Below are positions 10,146 through 23,743 of a stretch of DNA of 32,408 nt, piece after piece; position 1 is the stretch's first letter; every line of letters starts with the position of its first letter. Made by a program: the position numbers and the translations under genes. Origin of the DNA: Clostridia bacterium (GTDB lineage Bacteria > Bacillota > Clostridia > Oscillospirales > Acutalibacteraceae); assembly GCA_017555765.1 (NCBI GenBank), contig JAFZFT010000126.1:1-32408 (forward strand), read 5' to 3'. The notes below the pieces were generated by a model that saw only the letters and a program-made list of their open reading frames with translations, ran no database searches and was not told the DNA's origin.

Positions 10146-10997
10146 ATGATTGAATTCAGAAATGTTTCGATGAAGTATAAAACAAACGGCGCAGTCGCAC
10201 TTGATAAGGTGAATGTTAAAATCAATGACGGCGAATTTGTTTTTATCGTCGGCGCTTCGGGAGCGGGCAAGAGCTCCTTCCTTAATGTTATAATGGGTCA
10301 GGAAAAGATTGACTCAGGTGAGGTTTATGTCAACTCATATAACCTCAGAAAGATAAAGAAGAGAGAGCTTCCTTATCTCCGCCGTATGCTCGGCATCGTT
10401 TTCCAGGATTTCCGCCTCATCCCCAAGATGACGGTTTACGATAATATCGCTTTCGCGCTCCGTGTTATCGGTATGGGTGAAAGAAAAATCACAAAGAGAG
10501 TCCGTTACGTACTCAAGCTGGTTGACCTTTCAGAAAAGGCAAAGAATTTTCCCCATCAGCTTTCTCAGGGTGAGAGACAGAGAGTTGCAATCGCAAGAGC
10601 TCTCGTCAACAATCCCGCAGTTATCATAGCTGACGAGCCTACAGGTAACCTTGACCCTGTGCTTTCAGGTGAAATTATGAGCCTTTTCGACAAAATCAAT
10701 GCTCTCGGTGCAACTGTTGTCGTTGTTACCCACGACCTTGAGCTTGTCCGTCAGTTTGACCATAGAATAGTAACCATCGAAAACGGCAGAATTGTCTCCG
10801 ATATTCCCGCAAAGGCTTCAGCAGAGCAGCCCGTAAAGGCTGTCGCTGAGGAGAGTGAGGAGTCCGATGCTGAAGAGGCAGAGCTTGAAGATGCTCAGAC
10901 CTCCGATGAGGAGTACATTGAAATTCAGGGCGATGAGGATGACGAGGCAATCGACATTGACATCGACGAAATAAAAGAAAGTATGCAGGAGGGTTAA
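10146..10997 (+). CDS. ftsE: Cell-division ATP-binding protein FtsE with acidic C-terminal tail
   Basis: ATPase of the FtsEX ABC-type complex at the divisome, which drives conformational signalling to peptidoglycan hydrolases rather than transport. Motifs: Walker A GASGAGKS (36-43), Q-loop Gln87, signature LSQGE (139-143), Walker B VIIADE (159-164), H-loop His196. The ABC core ends near residue 220, the usual FtsE length. This protein continues to 283 aa with a ~50-residue tail that is very rich in Glu and Asp (235-283) and ends in DIDIDEIKESMQEG. AGAGGA precedes the ATG. The stop lies 3 nt before the ftsX ATG, and the ftsX ribosome binding site is inside the tail coding region. The tail is unusual for the family. 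Confidence 0.95.
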   Translation: MIEFRNVSMKYKTNGAVALDKVNVKINDGEFVFIVGASGAGKSSFLNVIMGQEKIDSGEVYVNSYNLRKIKKRELPYLRRMLGIVFQDFRLIPKMTVYDNIAFALRVIGMGERKITKRVRYVLKLVDLSEKAKNFPHQLSQGERQRVAIARALVNNPAVIIADEPTGNLDPVLSGEIMSLFDKINALGATVVVVTHDLELVRQFDHRIVTIENGRIVSDIPAKASAEQPVKAVAEESEESDAEEAELEDAQTSDEEYIEIQGDEDDEAIDIDIDEIKESMQEG

Positions 10998-11000
10998 AAA

Positions 11001-11942
11001 ATGGCAAAGAAAAAGAAAAAGTCCTCCGGCGGACTCAATACATCCTATCTTACCAAAATGGGCTTCCACAATATGGTGGCAAACCGCAGTATGACATTTT
11101 CCTCAATAAGCGTGCTTACTGCGTGTCTTATGCTTATAGGTATTTCGGTTATCATCCTTCTCAACATTCACTCCCTTGTCAATGACGTTGAAAAGCAGAA
11201 TGTTGTTGTCGCCTTTGTTCAGGACGGTGCAGACGATGCAACTGTTGCAAAGGTCGGTGCAGACCTTCTCACAATAGAAAACGTTGAGAATGTTGAGTTT
11301 GTTTCAAGAGAAGCGGCGTACGAGGAGCAGCTCGAAAAGTTCGGCTCATCCGTTGAGGAGCTTCAGGCTCACATCGACAATCCTCTTCCCGACTCCTACA
11401 GAGTAACAGTAAAGAATCTCGACGAGTTCGGTACCACACTTCAGTCAATCAAGTCAGTTGCGAATGTTATGCATGTAAGGGAAAGTCAGGAGCTTGTAAC
11501 TCAGATTTCAACCCTTCAGAAGTCAATCACCGCAATCTGCATTATGATTGTTATCGTTCTTGCGGGTGTTTCAATGTTCATCATTTCAAACACCATAAGA
11601 ATGGCTATGGTTTCAAGAAAAATCGACATTCAGGTTATGAAGAGCGTTGGTGCGACCAATACCTTTATCCGTTGGCCCTTTATGATAGAGGGTATTATCA
11701 TCGGTCTTGTTTCGGGCGTACTTGCTCTCGTACTTACCGTCGTTGTTGAAAATGTTGAGGGTGAGGCTCTTCGCAACCTTCTTGCAATGTTCGGCAGTAA
11801 GGCAGTATCACTTCTCGATTATATCTGGGTACTCGTAGGTAGCTATCTTGTAGCAGGTATAACCATCAGCTCATTCGGTACACTCGTATCAATCAGAAAG
11901 TATCTCAGAAAAGAAGGCAGCGAAGCAAACGAACTTATATAA
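11001..11942 (+). CDS. ftsX: Cell-division protein FtsX
   Basis: Membrane subunit of FtsEX, 313 aa with the expected topology. A basic cytosolic N-terminus (MAKKKKK) precedes TM1 (about 33-55). An extracellular domain (about 56-175) follows, then three TM segments near 178-198, 227-246 and 275-295. The segment SRKIDIQVMKSVGATNTFIRWPFMIEG after TM2 is the FtsX/MacB-type coupling region that contacts FtsE. GGAGGG lies 7 nt before the ATG. The extracellular domain is expected to bind the coiled-coil hydrolase encoded next. A small AGGGG/CCCCT hairpin (11957-11971) separates ftsX from that gene without a T-run, so cotranscription is likely. Confidence 0.95.
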   Translation: MAKKKKKSSGGLNTSYLTKMGFHNMVANRSMTFSSISVLTACLMLIGISVIILLNIHSLVNDVEKQNVVVAFVQDGADDATVAKVGADLLTIENVENVEFVSREAAYEEQLEKFGSSVEELQAHIDNPLPDSYRVTVKNLDEFGTTLQSIKSVANVMHVRESQELVTQISTLQKSITAICIMIVIVLAGVSMFIISNTIRMAMVSRKIDIQVMKSVGATNTFIRWPFMIEGIIIGLVSGVLALVLTVVVENVEGEALRNLLAMFGSKAVSLLDYIWVLVGSYLVAGITISSFGTLVSIRKYLRKEGSEANELI

Positions 11943-11985: not shown

Positions 11986-13326
11986 ATGAAAAGATCTATA
12001 TCTATGCTTCTTTGTCTGGTACTCGTGCTTACAGCAATGGTGTTCAGCGGATATTTACCTGAAAAGAAGGTAAATGCTGCAACAACCGATGAGCTTCAGA
12101 GTGAAATAAACAGACTTGACGGTGAAATCAAGGCTAATGAAGAAAAGCTCAATGCACTCAAAAAGGATCAGGCAAAGCAGAAGGAATATCTCGAGGCTCT
12201 TGAGAAGCAGATGAAAACGGTTGAAGAAAAAGCAACCAACATCCAGGTTCAGATTGAGACACTCGACACACAGATAGGCAACCTTGACGATGAAATCAGT
12301 CAGCTCACTCGTGAAATTGAGATGACAGAGATGGAAATTCTTGAAACAGAGGCAAATATTGCTTATTCAAGTGAGACTCTTGCTCTCAGACTCAGAAACT
12401 CCTATCTTTACGGTGAGGAGTCAACCTTAGAAATATTTATGGGTGCGGATGACCTTGCAAGCTTTATGACAGGTCTCGAGCTTATGAAAAGAACAACCGA
12501 AAATGACAGAGCTATGATTGAAAGCTTCAAGAAACAGGTTGTTGAGCTCAATGAATCCAAAAAGGCTCTTGAGGAAAAAAGATCCGAGGTTGACGATAAG
12601 AGAAGCGAGCAGCAGATAAAGCGTGACGACCTCAGCGTAAAAGAGAAGGAATACTACGCAACTCTCGACAAGCTCGAAGGACAGTATGCTGAAATCGAGG
12701 AGTACCTTGCATCGCTCGATAAAAACAGTGCAGTTTACGAGCAGTACATCAAGGAGCTCGAGGACGAAAAGGCTGCCGCAGACGCAGAAATCGACAGAAT
12801 TTACAGTGAGTTCTATGCTACATCACTTCAGGTAAGCAATGCTAATCCCACACCGGGAAGCAGCAGTAGCGGTGGCAGCAGTAGCAGCGGCAAGGGTGAC
12901 CCCTATGCTTCAACTGCTGACTGGGCATGGCCTCTCGGTACCGAATACTGCTATATAAGCAGTAAGTACGGTAACAGAGATGCAAGCATTTCCGGCTGGA
13001 GCTTCCACGGCGGTATAGATATCGCAGGTGGTTCAGGCAGACTTCACGGTAAGCCTGTTTACGCAACAAGATCAGGTAAGGTAATTACCGCAATCACAAG
13101 CGACAAGGGCTATGGTATTTACGTAATTATTGACCATGGCGACGGATATTCAAGCCTTTATGCTCATATGTCCGCAAGATATGTATCAACAGGTGATACT
13201 GTCAATAAGGGCGATATGATAGGCAGAGTCGGTAATACAGGTAACTCAAGAGGTGCACATCTTCACTTCGAAATCCGTTACTACGGTGAGAAGATTGACC
13301 CGCTGAGATTTGTATCAAAACCGTAA
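11986..13326 (+). CDS. Secreted coiled-coil M23 peptidoglycan endopeptidase, FtsEX partner
   Basis: 446-aa exported hydrolase: signal peptide (1-31, ending VNA-ATT), a long coiled coil (about 33-275), a Ser/Gly linker (about 288-303) and a C-terminal M23/LytM domain. The zinc ligands are intact: His341 and Asp345 in HGGID, and His427 in HLHFE. Catalytic His394 in YAHMS is also present. It should therefore be an active enzyme cutting peptide cross-links, unlike EnvC, whose LytM domain is degenerate. The architecture parallels the coiled-coil plus hydrolase proteins (PcsB, CwlO) controlled by FtsEX, and its position directly after ftsX supports that role (inference). AGAGGTG precedes the ATG. 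A 10-bp hairpin at 13353-13375 follows the gene. Confidence 0.92.
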   Translation: MKRSISMLLCLVLVLTAMVFSGYLPEKKVNAATTDELQSEINRLDGEIKANEEKLNALKKDQAKQKEYLEALEKQMKTVEEKATNIQVQIETLDTQIGNLDDEISQLTREIEMTEMEILETEANIAYSSETLALRLRNSYLYGEESTLEIFMGADDLASFMTGLELMKRTTENDRAMIESFKKQVVELNESKKALEEKRSEVDDKRSEQQIKRDDLSVKEKEYYATLDKLEGQYAEIEEYLASLDKNSAVYEQYIKELEDEKAAADAEIDRIYSEFYATSLQVSNANPTPGSSSSGGSSSSGKGDPYASTADWAWPLGTEYCYISSKYGNRDASISGWSFHGGIDIAGGSGRLHGKPVYATRSGKVITAITSDKGYGIYVIIDHGDGYSSLYAHMSARYVSTGDTVNKGDMIGRVGNTGNSRGAHLHFEIRYYGEKIDPLRFVSKP

Positions 13327-13352: not shown

Positions 13353-13388
13353 GAGGGGTAGAAATTCTGCCCCTCATAGTGTTTTAAA
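13353..13388 (+). terminator. Hairpin between M23 and S41 genes, possible leaky terminator
   Basis: GAGGGGTAGA (13353-13362) pairs with TCTGCCCCTC (13366-13375), with one T-G pair. The following ATAGTGTTTT has only a short, delayed T-run, so partial termination with read-through into the S41 gene is plausible. Confidence 0.55.
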
Positions 13389-13401: not shown

Positions 13402-14580
13402 ATGAATAGAAAGATACCTCTCGGCATTACAATAGGACTTGTTGTTTTTGCCCTTGCTATTTCTTCAGTACTTACTGCAGGTGTTATCACAAGGCAGTAC
13501 GATAGTCTTTTAGGCGGTATGCCCGAAAAGCTTGAGCGCTTCGGAATAGTAGACGAGCTTGACGGTATAATCAATGCAAACTACTACGGCAGAAGTGACG
13601 TTGAAGACCTTGAAAGAGCACTTGCTCAGGGTTATGTACAGAGCCTTACAGACGAAAACTCAGTGTATATGACCGCATCGGAGTACAAGACCTATCTTTC
13701 AGAAAGGGAGGGTAAGATTTCCGGTATAGGCATAGCCTATAAGAAAACTGCTGACGGCTATCTTGAGCTTACTGCGGTCAGGAAATCCTCGCCTGCATAT
13801 GCAGAGGGACTCAGAAAGGGCGACGTTATAATCGGCTTTGACGGTATTATCATCGACGCAGAAAATTACAGTGAAATGACCGCAAGACTTGTTGACGATA
13901 AGCTTACAAGCGTCAATATTATCTACAGACGAGGCGGTACTGAAAACTCGGTGAGTGTCTCAAAGGGCTACGAAGCGGTTTCAGTTTCAACTTCCTTCTA
14001 TGAGAATGTAGGCTATATTGAAATCAGCGATTTTTATCCCTCGACAGCCTCACAGGTTGAGCAGGCGATAAATAAATTTACCTCCTCACAGATTGCCGCT
14101 ATAGTCATCGATCTTAGAGAGAACAGCAGCTACAACTATGATGCCGCTATGGAAGTGCTCGATATTTTCGTACCGATGTCTGATAGTAAGAGACCTGCCG
14201 CAACTGTGGTTGATGCTGACGGTAAAACAGTAAAAACCTATACCACCACTGCGGGCGAAGTCAATCTTCCGGTTGGTGTACTCGTTTCAGATTCTACCAA
14301 GCAGGCGGCTGAGCTTTTTGCATGTAGCCTCAGAGATTTTGGCAAGGCAGTAATTTTTGCCGAGAAGACGAGCGGCGGCTCTGCAGTTGTAACCGAAGCC
14401 TTTGTCCTTTCCGAGGGTAGTGCAGTACTGCTCACAACAGGTAAAGTGCTTCCTTACTCGGGAGTGAGCTTCGACGGTACGGGTATTGCGCCTGACTATC
14501 TGCTTGAAAAGGCGACACCGTCAAAGGAAATCAGCGAGGACGGACAATTCCTCTTCGCAGTATCTGTTCTTACAGAATAA
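13402..14580 (+). CDS. S41/CtpB-family PDZ protein lacking the catalytic residues (pseudoprotease)
   Basis: 392-aa membrane-anchored homologue of C-terminal processing proteases. An N-terminal TM segment (about 6-28) precedes a cap region, a PDZ domain (about 105-190) and the S41 fold (about 195-370; ending SGVSFDGTGIAPDYLL). The fold aligns without gaps through VLVSDSTKQAAELFACSLRDFG and AEKTSGGSAVV. In active enzymes these positions hold SASASE and TFGKGSVQ. Here the Ser is Gln301, the Lys is Gly326 (25 residues apart, as in the family) and the following Gln is Val330. The NPGG oxyanion loop is replaced by NSSYN. I therefore call it catalytically dead, probably a scaffold or substrate-binding protein. 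GGGGAG precedes ATG 13402. The reading frame is intact, which argues against decay. Confidence 0.85.
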   Translation: MNRKIPLGITIGLVVFALAISSVLTAGVITRQYDSLLGGMPEKLERFGIVDELDGIINANYYGRSDVEDLERALAQGYVQSLTDENSVYMTASEYKTYLSEREGKISGIGIAYKKTADGYLELTAVRKSSPAYAEGLRKGDVIIGFDGIIIDAENYSEMTARLVDDKLTSVNIIYRRGGTENSVSVSKGYEAVSVSTSFYENVGYIEISDFYPSTASQVEQAINKFTSSQIAAIVIDLRENSSYNYDAAMEVLDIFVPMSDSKRPAATVVDADGKTVKTYTTTAGEVNLPVGVLVSDSTKQAAELFACSLRDFGKAVIFAEKTSGGSAVVTEAFVLSEGSAVLLTTGKVLPYSGVSFDGTGIAPDYLLEKATPSKEISEDGQFLFAVSVLTE

Positions 14581-14612: not shown

Positions 14613-17456
14613 GTGAGCGATATAAAAATCAGTATAATTACTGCAGTGCACAACGGCGAAAAGCAGCTCAGTGCCACTCTTGATTCGATAAAGTCACAGT
14701 CCTTCAGGGATTTTGAGGTTATAATGCTCGATGCGTCAAGCTCTGACGGTACCTATAGTGTAATGGAGCAGTATCTTTCCGATAAACGCTTCTCTCTTCA
14801 CAAATGTGACGATGTCAGTATTTCTGCCGCAAGAAATCTTGGTATTACACTTGCAAAGGGTAAATATATAGCCTTTGCCGACAGTAGTGTAGTCTTTTCA
14901 AGAAACCTTTTCTCACAGTTTTATAACTGCGCAGAGAAGGAAAAGGCAGAGCTTTGCATAGCTCCCATGATAAGCAGTGACGAATACGGTGAGCACCGCT
15001 TCTCATCCTCACGTGCTCTTACAAAAAGAAAGAGTATGAGCCGTTTCGATACAGATATTCTCTGGAATCCCGCAGTTACCAACAAGCTCTTTTTAAAGAG
15101 CAGTGTTGAAGAAAAAAATCTCCGCTTCAACTTTTTCGGCAGAGCAAGAGAAGCGGCATTTACAGTTGAGTTTGCTCTTCAGAGCGGTACTATATCCGCC
15201 TGCAGTAAGGGCAATGTGTGCTATGTTTCATCGGTTATAAACGACGGTGTAGCTCCCTTTACCATAGAGGAATATATCTCAGGTTACGAATATATCGTAA
15301 AAAGGGCGGGAGAGGTCTTCGATAAAGCGGTTGAGAACAGTGTAACCGACTTCGAGAAAAAGGAGTTCGTAAGGCTTCGCACCTATTATATCGACCAGGT
15401 TTACAGCAAAGAGATAACTGTACTTCTTTACAGCTATTACAGGCACTTCTGGTTTTTAGATGACGAAAGTATAAAGAAGTATGCTTCGATAATAACAGAG
15501 CTTGTTTCAAGGCTTTCCAACAGCGGCAGAGGTGTACTTTTAAAGAAAAACAAGGATATTTTCTATGGTGGCAGACTCATAGACAATAAAAAGGAAATGG
15601 CAGAAAATCCCAAAGTAACCCTTGTTATTGCCAAAAACGAGAAAACCGCCCATCACCATACAGAAAGACTCGCAATTCAGGTTTCATCAATTTTCGGTCA
15701 GACAATGCCATCCTTTGAATTGCTTGTTGATGCAAGACTAGAAGATATCTTCCCCGAAAAATGGAAAAACAGTGAAAACGTACGCTTCATAGAGGGGGAC
15801 AGCCTTGCGGAGTGCAAAAATCTTGCCCTCGAAATGAGCCGCACCGACTATATAATGTTCCAGGACGGCTTTGCAAGACTTAATCCGAAGCTTCTTATGC
15901 GTCATTATCTCTGCCTTGCGGGTAAGGATAAATACGGCTTTTCAACCTCGCCACTCTCAAAGTTTGACGGTGAAAAGGTAACAGAATATTCCTTTACCGA
16001 GCTTTTCTACCACTCAGACCTCAATGCAGAAAGAGTGAAAAACGGAGATTTCAGCTTTGCACTTGATTTGTTCTTTGCAAACAAGCTTTTCCGTACTGAG
16101 CATCTGAGAGGTATCCGTTTCAGCTTCAGCGACAACTCCATAACGGATATGTATAAGCTTTATACCCATTCGAGGTTCAGAAAGCTTTCCCATACGGGCG
16201 CTTATATCCCTTACACCGAGCAGCAGGCGGTCGAATATCTTCTCACGGAAAAGAAAAATATGCCTGCGGGCGCTCTTTCGATGCAGAGAAGGTATAAAAA
16301 CACACTTTTCAGGAATGTAAAGCTTAAAAAGGTAAAGAATAATATAAAGAAAACCGCATCCTTTTTTGTAAAGCTTTTTGTAAGCCTTGTAAGCCGCATT
16401 CTCACCCTTGTTTATTCCTCGTGTAAGCTTAAAAACAGAGTCTTCTTTTACAGTACTCTTGAAAAGGGACGCTTCAACCAAAACCTGGAAGCAGTTTATT
16501 CGGAATGTGAGTTCCCGAAGGTGATTTTCAGAAAGGCTAATCCCCACACTCACAAAGATGTAGCCAAAATAAGGCGGTATCTTCTTACAAGTAAGGTTAT
16601 AGTTATTGATTGTGAGCTCGAATACCTGCGAGGTATAAGACTTCGTCCCGAACAGAAGGTAATTCAGCTCTGGCATAAAAACGGAGCCTTCCGTCGCTTC
16701 GGTATTGATAAAAACACAACCGAATCCCATTTCAGAGAGTATAAAAACCACTCGCAGTACAGTGATGTGGCAGTAACGGGTGAATATGTAAGGCAGTTTT
16801 ACACCCATGCCTTCGGTGTGGATTACGAAACAGTAAAGCCTCTCGGTGCACCCTCTACGGATATACTTCTTAAGAAGGATTTCGTTCAGGTCAACAAGGA
16901 GATAATACAGAATAAGCACCCGCTTCTGAAAAACAGAAAGGTATATGTATATTTCCCCTCCTATAGAGAAAATGAGGGAGAGCTTTCGGTGCTCGATCCG
17001 AAAATAGACTGGGCAAAGCTTAATAATGATCTTGCCGATGACGAAATTTTCGTTGTTTCAAGGCACCCGCTCACTCCTGAAGTCTTTTTCAAGGATGCCT
17101 TCTATTCCCGTGTAAAGGACTATACCAAGGACTCCACCGAGGAGCTTTTAAGCCTTGCAGATGTTATTATAACCGATTATTCATCGATTATTTTCGAAGC
17201 ATCACTTCTTAAAAAGCCTATGGTCTTTTATTGCTCCGACTTTGGCGAGTTTGAGCCTGATTTCTATCTTGATTACGATAATGAGCTTCCGGGTGAAATC
17301 ATCAAGGACTCCGAAAAGCTTCTTGATGCTGTCAGAAATGCGTCTTCAGTTTCTGATAAGGAAAAAATCGACTCCTTCAGGGGAAGATTTATGAGTGCCT
17401 GCGACGGCAGAAGCACCGCCCGCATCCTTTCTCTTATAGGGAATTATCTGAAATAA
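14613..17456 (+). CDS. GT2 glycosyltransferase fused to CDP-glycerol glycerophosphotransferase (TagF-like)
   Basis: 947-aa wall-polymer enzyme. Residues 4-110 form a GT2 domain (ISIITAVHNGEKQL...; the usual DXD appears as DSS, so activity of this half is uncertain). Residues about 330-500 look like a second, degraded GT2 module. From about 610 to the end is a poly(glycerol-phosphate) transferase domain with QLWHKNGAF (His688), YFPSYREN, SRHP (His818) and ITDYSSIIFEASLLKKP. Both histidines essential in TagF-type enzymes are kept. There is no signal peptide, and the enzyme is expected at the inner membrane face. The GTG start at 14613 follows AAAGGAGA by 9 nt. It follows the S41 gene by 32 bp, so cotranscription is likely, and ends in a strong terminator at 17461-17502. 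It may make a glycerol-phosphate-containing teichoic or capsular polymer. Confidence 0.85.
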   Translation: MSDIKISIITAVHNGEKQLSATLDSIKSQSFRDFEVIMLDASSSDGTYSVMEQYLSDKRFSLHKCDDVSISAARNLGITLAKGKYIAFADSSVVFSRNLFSQFYNCAEKEKAELCIAPMISSDEYGEHRFSSSRALTKRKSMSRFDTDILWNPAVTNKLFLKSSVEEKNLRFNFFGRAREAAFTVEFALQSGTISACSKGNVCYVSSVINDGVAPFTIEEYISGYEYIVKRAGEVFDKAVENSVTDFEKKEFVRLRTYYIDQVYSKEITVLLYSYYRHFWFLDDESIKKYASIITELVSRLSNSGRGVLLKKNKDIFYGGRLIDNKKEMAENPKVTLVIAKNEKTAHHHTERLAIQVSSIFGQTMPSFELLVDARLEDIFPEKWKNSENVRFIEGDSLAECKNLALEMSRTDYIMFQDGFARLNPKLLMRHYLCLAGKDKYGFSTSPLSKFDGEKVTEYSFTELFYHSDLNAERVKNGDFSFALDLFFANKLFRTEHLRGIRFSFSDNSITDMYKLYTHSRFRKLSHTGAYIPYTEQQAVEYLLTEKKNMPAGALSMQRRYKNTLFRNVKLKKVKNNIKKTASFFVKLFVSLVSRILTLVYSSCKLKNRVFFYSTLEKGRFNQNLEAVYSECEFPKVIFRKANPHTHKDVAKIRRYLLTSKVIVIDCELEYLRGIRLRPEQKVIQLWHKNGAFRRFGIDKNTTESHFREYKNHSQYSDVAVTGEYVRQFYTHAFGVDYETVKPLGAPSTDILLKKDFVQVNKEIIQNKHPLLKNRKVYVYFPSYRENEGELSVLDPKIDWAKLNNDLADDEIFVVSRHPLTPEVFFKDAFYSRVKDYTKDSTEELLSLADVIITDYSSIIFEASLLKKPMVFYCSDFGEFEPDFYLDYDNELPGEIIKDSEKLLDAVRNASSVSDKEKIDSFRGRFMSACDGRSTARILSLIGNYLK

Positions 17457-17546: not shown

Positions 17547-17576
17547 AATAATTTGTACTGATCAGCTCAAATTATT
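17547..17576. promoter_or_regulatory. Perfect inverted repeat upstream of spoIVB (operator candidate)
   Basis: AATAATTTG (17547-17555) and CAAATTATT (17568-17576) form a perfect 9-bp inverted repeat around a 12-nt centre that itself contains palindromic TGATCA. It ends 16 nt before the spoIVB ribosome binding site, where a repressor or sigma-factor site would act. I could not assign a sigma-F or sigma-G promoter with confidence. Confidence 0.5.
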
Positions 17577-17607
17577 GTTACACGTAAATTTCAAAGGAGG
17601 CGGTTTT

Positions 17608-18789
17608 ATGGCAAAATTTGTAAACAGTATCAGATACAGTCTGCTTTTTCTTACCGTCGGATTTCTCTCGCTGCTTGTTTACAGCTTTTTTGCAGTGCCC
17701 GACGAGATATATACTGTTCAGGATACGCCCTCTGGGGTAAGCGACATCTACACAATAACCTACGAGCAGACCGATTCGAAGGGTATGCGAAGCTTTGCGG
17801 CAGGGCAGTACAAGGTAAAGGTCAGCCTTTTTAATATTCCCATAAAGGATTCCACACTGCTTGTAGGTGAGCGCCGTTATGTTGCAATTTCAGGCGATGT
17901 AATCGGTTTGCGGCTTTTCACCGAGGGAGTATTGATAGTAGATATTGATTCAATCTACAGTCAGGAGAGTTCGGTTTCACCGGGTGAAAAGGCGGGTCTG
18001 AAAAAAGGGGATGTCATCTGTAAAATTGACGGAGAGCAGACTCTCAGCAGCAGTGCGGTGCATAATAAGATAAAGTACAGTGGCGGAAAAAGTCTCGAGG
18101 TTGAGTATATCCGTGACGGAAAGCATTATCTCACAGTGCTCACTCCCGTACTAAGCAGCCTTGATAACAGCTATAAGGGTGGTATATGGATAAGAGACAG
18201 TGCGGCGGGTATTGGCACAGTAAGCTTTTACGATGTTGAAACGGGAATTTTTGCCGCACTCGGTCATGCGGTCTGCGATGTGGACACGGGAGATATTCTT
18301 CCTCTTCTTAACGGAGATATAGTCGAAGCGGATATAGTGGGCTGCCGTAAGGGTACAAGCGGTATTGCGGGTGAGCTTTGCGGAGTATTTTCAGGCGAGA
18401 GTATAGGTGTGCTTGCGGGTAACACCGACACGGGGATATACGGAGTTTTTGACGAGTGGGACAAGGAAGCGGAGCTTTATCCTGTAGCCACGGCAGACGA
18501 GGTTAAAAAGGGGAAGGCGCAGATACTTTCAACCGTTGACTCCGCTGAAAAGCAGTTTTATGATATCGAAATACTGAAGATAAATTCCGACAGCCCCGAC
18601 AACAAAAATATGGTTATTCAGGTTATCGACAGTGAGCTTATAAGCAAAACCGGCGGCATCGTACAGGGTATGAGCGGCTCACCGATTATCCAGGACGGCA
18701 AGGTTGTAGGCGCGGTCACTCACGTACTTGTCAATAACCCCGAGAAGGGCTATGCCATTTTTGCCGAGGCTATGCTTGATGCGGGGTGA
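17608..18789 (+). CDS. spoIVB: SpoIVB sporulation serine peptidase (S55)
   Basis: Forespore-secreted protease that triggers sigma-K activation by cleaving SpoIVFA-type targets. 393 aa: N-terminal membrane anchor (about 10-29), PDZ domain (about 100-180; SPGEKAGLKKGDVICKIDG) and S55 peptidase domain. The triad is intact: His220 in ALGHAV, Asp341 in QVIDSE and Ser356 in GMSGSPI, with the Asp-Ser spacing of 15 matching Bacillus SpoIVB. ATG 17608 is preferred (AAAGGAGG at 17593-17600, 7 nt upstream) over an upstream in-frame start at 17575. It is a single gene between a terminator and a convergent terminator. spo0A, its usual Bacillus neighbour, is not adjacent here. Its presence implies that the organism forms endospores. 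Confidence 0.93.
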   Translation: MAKFVNSIRYSLLFLTVGFLSLLVYSFFAVPDEIYTVQDTPSGVSDIYTITYEQTDSKGMRSFAAGQYKVKVSLFNIPIKDSTLLVGERRYVAISGDVIGLRLFTEGVLIVDIDSIYSQESSVSPGEKAGLKKGDVICKIDGEQTLSSSAVHNKIKYSGGKSLEVEYIRDGKHYLTVLTPVLSSLDNSYKGGIWIRDSAAGIGTVSFYDVETGIFAALGHAVCDVDTGDILPLLNGDIVEADIVGCRKGTSGIAGELCGVFSGESIGVLAGNTDTGIYGVFDEWDKEAELYPVATADEVKKGKAQILSTVDSAEKQFYDIEILKINSDSPDNKNMVIQVIDSELISKTGGIVQGMSGSPIIQDGKVVGAVTHVLVNNPEKGYAIFAEAMLDAG

Positions 18790-23404: not shown

Positions 23405-23408
23405 ATGG

Positions 23409-23743
23409 TATGAGTGAATCTGTAAGCCGAGTTCTGTCATTTAAGGCAATCATCTATCTAGACACGCAATTGCTCACGTGTTCAAGCCACCTTTCGGTTT
23501 TCGCCCAGCTGACGTATCATATCCTGTCGGTGTTGCTTCGGGTAGGGTTTACATGGCCATAAGGTCTCCCTTATGCCGGTGAGCTCTTACCTCGCCTTTC
23601 CATCCTTACCAAATAAATGGCGGTTTATTTCTGTTGCACTATCCCTGAGGTCGCCCTCGGCGGTCGTTAACCGTTACCCTGCTGTATGAAGCTCGGACTT
23701 TCCTCACGCCGTAAAGGCCCGCGACTGCCCAACTCACTCATGC
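23409..23743 (-). ncRNA. rnpB: RNase P RNA, class A
   Basis: Catalytic RNA of RNase P, which removes tRNA 5' leaders. Universally conserved segments are present on the minus strand: GAGGAAAGTCCGAGCTTC near the 5' end, ACAGAAATAAACCGCC in the middle, GGTAAGGATGGAAAGG, then CTTGAACACGTGAGCAATTG, and ACAGAACTCGGCTTACAG near the 3' end. GAGTGA near each end (plus-strand 23734-23739 and 23412-23417) closes helix P1. The order and spacing match the E. coli (type A) layout. The exact ends are estimated from P1 and the promoter. The 5' end lies just below a TTGACT-17-TAAAAT promoter. Confidence 0.95.

Follow-up and report, generated by a model that had tools for sequence, protein, structure and literature searches.

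FtsEX governs cell-wall cutting via partner proteins (EnvC, for instance, works with FtsEX), and to our knowledge these partners have been little studied in gut Clostridia. Some of the regulators described elsewhere are catalytically dead relatives of hydrolases, such as the degenerate LytM/M23 proteins DipM and EnvC, which regulate cell-wall enzymes (PMC10336132, in excerpt). SweC and SweD are non-hydrolase co-factors of the B. subtilis FtsEX-CwlO cell-wall hydrolase complex; they are cited here as a works-like comparison, and no relation is claimed. Among S41 proteases, B. subtilis CtpB uses Ser309, Lys334 and Gln338 as catalytic residues, loses PDZ peptide binding upon the substitution V118Y, and depends on dimerisation for its protease function (excerpts of PMC3808539). 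The B. subtilis chromosome likewise has the order ftsEX-ctpB (PMC5072692, in excerpt), and in this species CtpB acts together with SpoIVB to activate sigma-K (parts of PMC3808539 and PMC13174948). CtpA of P. aeruginosa (with LbcA) is an active S41 protease whose clients include peptidoglycan hydrolases, which it degrades (PMC8764530, in excerpt).

The locus considered here lies in the window, i.e. the whole stretch of 32,408 nucleotides that was analysed, and comprises the following features.

10146..10997, + strand: FtsE, ABC ATPase (PF00005; position kept in relatives)
11001..11942, + strand: FtsX (FtsX_ECD E 2.4e-17, FtsX E 1.5e-12)
11986..13326, + strand: coiled-coil M23 peptidoglycan hydrolase (PF01551 E 2.2e-31)
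13353..13375, + strand: hairpin between the M23 and S41 genes (z -3.5), possible terminator or attenuator
13402..14580, + strand: CtpB-type S41/PDZ protein of 392 aa, catalytically degenerate (matches to PF03572, PDZ_2 and CtpB 4c2f)
13420..13581, + strand: membrane helix and membrane-proximal linker, residues 7-60 (predicted helix, low pLDDT)
13711..13971, + strand: PDZ domain, residues 104-190 (carboxylate loop GIGI retained)
14122..14133, + strand: degenerate oxyanion loop, NSSY replacing NPGG (by alignment)
14302..14304, + strand: Gln301 at the nucleophile position, CtpB Ser309 (by alignment)
14380..14382, + strand: Ser327 at the general-base position, CtpB Lys334 (by alignment)
14392..14394, + strand: Thr331 at the position of CtpB Gln338 (by alignment)
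14613..17456: glycosyltransferase fusion
17575-18789: spoIVB frame

The S41 gene forms a full open frame and belongs to the S41 family (PF03572, E 1.7e-25, 89.9 bits against a cut-off of 24), its closest solved relative by sequence being B. subtilis CtpB (4c2f, E 1.9e-24). The architecture of CtpB is present, with a membrane anchor, an N-terminal domain (a weak PF22694 match, E 0.027, under its cut-off), a PDZ domain (PF13180, PDZ_2, E 7.8e-7) and the S41 core, and the likeness extends to the S41 fold, the PDZ insertion, the N-terminal domain and the gene order. An earlier note on this DNA had stated that the frame is complete and that PDZ and membrane anchor are kept, which agrees with the PF13180 match and with a predicted N-terminal helix that includes a membrane segment. 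The cut-offs of the NCBIfam CtpB equivalog NF045589 (109.9 bits vs 633) and of TIGR00225 prc (136.7 vs 218.6) are not reached, and in its own genome, 94.57% complete, this protein is the sole PF03572 match. Its AlphaFold model (mean pLDDT 82.3, pTM 0.73) matches P. aeruginosa CtpA best in Foldseek (8sxe, E 2.8e-27), followed by CtpB (4c2c, E 6.1e-27), with whole-chain TM-scores of merely 0.46-0.63 and rmsd of 9-12 Å, which suggests that the domains of the predicted S41 protein are oriented differently or that their modelled orientation is not reliable. The chain stops at residue 392, with one predicted helix (381-390) after the core, and thus has no room for the C-terminal helical dimerisation domain of CtpB; its active relatives within the order are of similar length (median frame 409 aa). 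The sequence also matches the S41-like modules of RBP3/IRBP (9frx), an animal retinoid-binding protein with a non-enzymatic role and no known link to FtsEX.

The earlier note's central claim, made from the stretch 14284-14400 (residues 295-333), was that this homologue has lost its whole catalytic triad. It holds, since Ser, Lys and Gln are all missing from the window protein, in contrast to both CtpB and the active protease CtpA, and the NPGG loop is degenerate as well, reading NSSY. The replacement of the nucleophile by Gln301 was also read correctly, as CtpB Ser309 aligns there. The alignment to the S41 core is not gap-free, however, for the window protein carries one extra residue ahead of the TSGG motif compared with CtpB. 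Reading the block without this insertion led to the assignment of Lys to Gly326 and of Gln to Val330, each off by one; the residues in question are Ser327 and Thr331, while Gly326 corresponds to CtpB Gly333, the glycine that opens the GKG motif and is invariant. That the window protein is proteolytically inactive is thus well supported by its sequence.

The earlier proposal that the protein binds C-termini instead of cutting is weakened by the residue equivalent to CtpB Val118, which is Tyr113 in the window, i.e. the very substitution that blocks peptide binding in CtpB. Tyr occupies this column in 18 of 27 genus members, compared with 2 of 82 active proteins, and PDZ peptide binding may therefore be impaired. 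The C-terminus of the M23 enzyme was considered as a PDZ ligand and rejected: a terminal Pro is found in 30/73 cases with an inactive S41 protein and in 7/59 with an active one, counts in which related genomes dominate.

Loss of the catalytic pair is shared by the whole genus, whose named records are metagenome bins, many of them from the ruminant gut. The S41 gene is present in 26 of 33 other genomes, and the Ser-Lys pair is missing in all 27 orthologues, window included: both residues are gone in 23, Ser persists without Lys in two (G024, G025) and Lys without Ser in two (G018, G028). The column of Gln338 still holds Gln in 10/27, and the oxyanion Gly254 is replaced by Ser in 25/27 and kept in 1/27. 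All 26 other copies are free of internal stops, one being truncated by a contig end. An isolated mutation, by chance or by sequencing error, is rejected by these 26 orthologues, and copies that keep the SASASE and GKG motifs, which the earlier note had named as evidence against its reading, were not seen in the genus; by sequence, the protein is a conserved pseudoprotease. No second S41 gene was found among the 34 genus genomes searched, of which 27 have one PF03572 match and seven have none. In five of these seven the M23 gene is followed directly by the glycosyltransferase, the other two showing a contig end and no ftsX match, respectively. The absence of S41 with M23 kept in five genomes indicates that its role is dispensable in some lineages. 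Divergence of M23 as a companion of S41 loss was examined and rejected, as it is found in one clade (G002, G014 and G031; M23 catalytic domain 44-47% and FtsX 64-65% identical to those of the window) and not in G019 and G022, which likewise lack S41; G026 retains S41 although its M23 and FtsX are 45% and 57% identical to the window's. The M23 enzymes of the genus clade without S41 (L112, L113 and L114) read HYGxD, not HGGxD.

Taken over genus, family and order, the survey covered 169 genomes (placeholder G269 dropped), with an S41 gene in 163 and 170 S41 proteins once a false match to SpoIVB in G018 was removed. Searches used the genus profile A1, except for the first 20 order regions, which were searched with the window protein. 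Both Ser and Lys, the definition of 'active' used here, are present in 82 proteins, neither in 69, Lys alone in 16 and Ser alone in 3; G337 is classed as active despite NKGE at the NPGG column and Val at the Gln column. Counted by genome, inactive copies occur in 27/27 members of the genus, 44/65 in other genera of the family, 6/13 in family f25 and 4/51 in other families of the order, and in family f10 an inactive and an active S41 gene stand in tandem in 7/7 genomes examined (of 12). Of the 71 genomes surveyed outside the family, eight (four each from f10 and f25) were included after inactive copies had come to light in these two families, so that the fractions given for them are not free of bias. 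Of the 54 genomes beyond the genus that carry an inactive copy (f10 tandems excluded), 49 have no other PF03572 match. Loss as a general S41 trait of the class was rejected, Ser and Lys being kept in 67/67 S41 proteins from other orders (retrieved with an active query and its best matches), 34 of which have an FtsX match in the surrounding stretch. The earlier note's picture was therefore right as to the pseudoprotease and too narrow as to its extent, since the loss recurs across the order.

A strong S41 match (E below 1e-20) is found in 58 of 100 family genomes, as counted by hand, and in one family genome, G094, the S41 match is broken by several stop codons. Three inactive S41 proteins of the family (L174, 2065-3021, -; L178, 2248-3213, -; L177, 4688-5920, +) have 3 to 7 residues aligned to PDZ, and two of these frames are 319-322 aa long.

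The recurrence was followed in two trees, both quick searches with several weak branches, whose change counts carry no direction. The tree of FtsE and FtsX, with 143 genomes, gives 10 changes between active and inactive when f10 tandems are scored as active and genomes without S41 are excluded. The S41 tree gives 7 changes among 104 of the 170 proteins (a random ~1/5 of the genus and ~2/5 of the family, frames below 330 aa excluded, catalytic columns kept in) and unites family clades that the FtsE and FtsX tree keeps apart. In it the inactive f10 copies do not group with the active f10 copies but with the lone inactive copies found in f11 and f24 (support 49), and the f10 copies may thus be an old pair.

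The genomic place of the gene is largely conserved. Across 20 genus loci the order is a PucR-like regulator, ftsE, ftsX, M23 (one or two genes), S41, the glycosyltransferase and spoIVB, except that spoIVB directly follows S41 in L086, that neither downstream gene was found in L093 and that L087 and L089 have no spoIVB within the stretch covered. In genomes with at least 3.5 kb of sequence upstream of S41, an M23 gene within 400 bases and FtsX upstream accompany the inactive gene in 73/76, so that it stays next to ftsEX, a point that the earlier note had proposed to check. The active gene has the same neighbourhood in 58/68, and the synteny is therefore inherited and not peculiar to inactive copies. 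The intergenic hairpin at 13353-13375 has the arms GAGGGGTAGAA/TTCTGCCCCTC, and similar hairpins with paired changes are seen in three relatives compared by eye; terminator-like sites in the hairpin region as a whole show no excess (9 vs 7.1 in shuffles). Given this hairpin, the two genes may not share one transcript. Downstream, the product of 14613-17456 is a GT2 glycosyltransferase fused to a CDP-glycerol glycerophosphotransferase domain, adjoining the cell-wall cluster, and the corresponding frame is far shorter in several relatives. The Rfam scan of the window returned RNase P RNA (class A, 23407-23740, -) and nothing else.

The inactive proteins vary at the catalytic positions and keep what surrounds them. 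All 88 retain Glu312 and Gly333 and have either Thr or Ser at position 307 (CtpB numbering), while Ser309, Lys334 and the oxyanion glycines are variable; in the 44 inactive family members outside the genus, the Ser309 position is Gly in 42. Gln338 survives more often than these variable residues, in 10/27 genus members and in 29 of the 44. Inactive copies look to be under purifying selection: among the pairs listed (close pairs, NG86, 30 of 37), dN/dS is 0.03-0.18, comparable to active S41 pairs (0.06-0.12), FtsX and M23, values obtained on stop-to-stop frames that include a few upstream codons and with dS saturated in many pairs. The two f10 copies sit in the same genomes, so that divergence time is matched, and their 21 genome pairs, which derive from 7 genomes and are not independent, show the inactive copy to be the more conserved in the membrane and linker region (residues 5-60) in 21/21 (mean 67% vs 30%), in the N-terminal domain in 21/21 (66% vs 49%), in PDZ in 17/21 (58% vs 53%) and in the core in just 8/21 (63% vs 66% in the active copy). 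In the family outside the genus, membrane and linker identity is 53% for inactive and 22% for active pairs, core identity being similar (47% and 49%); these regions are defined on window columns, and active copies align poorly to them in the membrane part. The membrane and linker motif also occurs in some active members of the family (f1) and of f25; it is thus not strictly tied to inactivity and may predate the loss of activity. The M23 motif remains intact beside the inactive S41 in 93/94 copies (f10 tandems apart) and beside the active one in 72/72, and the window M23 has all five motif residues (H, D, H and HxH at the motif columns). The locus hence differs from DipM and EnvC, which have another fold: here it is the S41 protein that is degenerate. 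In the f10 M23 enzymes (L041, L194, L263, L264, L265, L266), the last His of HxH is Asp (HLD) in 6/6 scored; with H, D, H and HxD, the enzyme there may itself be degenerate.

Several other explanations can be weighed against these data. The pseudoprotease could work with SpoIVB in sporulation signalling, like CtpB of B. subtilis, and not with FtsEX. The window and 14/20 genus loci (one of them with a weak, contig-end fragment) have a spoIVB match at one or two genes' distance on the downstream side of S41, which fits this idea, as does the cooperation of CtpB with SpoIVB. It is nonetheless unlikely, because M23 and FtsX are the neighbours conserved throughout the family and order, because G022 keeps SpoIVB and lacks S41, and because the inactive S41 persists without a SpoIVB match in five family genomes (G070, 97% complete; G077, 96%; G066, G117 and G123, 79-81%), a persistence that speaks against a function dependent on SpoIVB. 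Alternatively, protease activity would have become dispensable and the gene would be a decaying relic drifting to loss, which would account for the five genus genomes that keep M23 without S41, for the incomplete presence of strong matches in the family and for the broken copy of G094. The low dN/dS of the pairs listed (with the saturation of dS noted above), the 26 other genus copies without internal stops, and membrane and N-terminal regions that are better conserved than in active copies make such decay rather improbable.

The inactive protein might also be a regulatory subunit of an active S41 partner in a hetero-oligomer, as the f10 tandems and the importance of dimerisation for CtpB would allow. 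The genus and 49 of the 54 other inactive-copy genomes have no second S41 with which it could pair, and this explanation, which could hold for f10 only, is quite improbable as a general one. Finally, proteolysis could persist through relocated residues, Thr299 and Lys315 being invariant in the genus. The column of Thr299 is also Thr or Ser in 82/82 active proteins, so that Thr299 is no new nucleophile; just one genus member of 27 keeps Gly254, and what stands at the Ser and Lys positions differs from species to species. In the predicted model, helix 301-312 starts at residue 301 and residue 327 directly precedes strand 329-335, and an active site elsewhere in the fold is disfavoured by this modelled secondary structure together with the conserved columns. 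A conserved Ser/Lys pair at another place, which would have spoken against the earlier note, was not found; judging from the alignment and the conserved neighbouring residues, the catalytic site does not appear to have been relocated, and continued proteolysis is very improbable.

The best explanation, to which we give a probability of about one half, is that the protein is a conserved pseudoprotease, anchored in the membrane, that partners FtsEX and its M23 hydrolase without cutting. Such a role is suggested by its persistence next to M23 and ftsX and by the higher conservation of the membrane part in inactive copies. A CtpB-type S41/PDZ protein would have lost proteolysis while keeping its fold, membrane anchor and genomic place; its membrane helix and membrane-proximal domain would dock either on FtsX or on the M23 coiled coil bound to it, and the PDZ and S41 clefts would hold or gate the M23 hydrolase rather than degrade it. 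We infer the partnership with FtsX and M23 from gene order and constraint, and the S41 protein would, by extension, control M23 activity. How this came about can be sketched more tentatively, with slightly less than even confidence: within this order of Clostridia, FtsEX-linked CtpB would have repeatedly become a membrane-docked subunit that controls FtsEX-M23 without proteolysis, the membrane and juxtamembrane surface arising first and the losses following, with the f10 copies having split the two jobs. A literature search judged by titles and abstract openings found no description of an S41 pseudoprotease at ftsEX, in agreement with the earlier note.

If this explanation is true, a recurrently inactivated protease with a fixed place at ftsEX-M23 would represent a regulator of a new kind, and the inactive/active tandem of f10 would offer a direct route to separating the binding role from the cutting role. 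The finding is also a warning that S41 peptidases called by profile at ftsEX in these bacteria are often not proteases.
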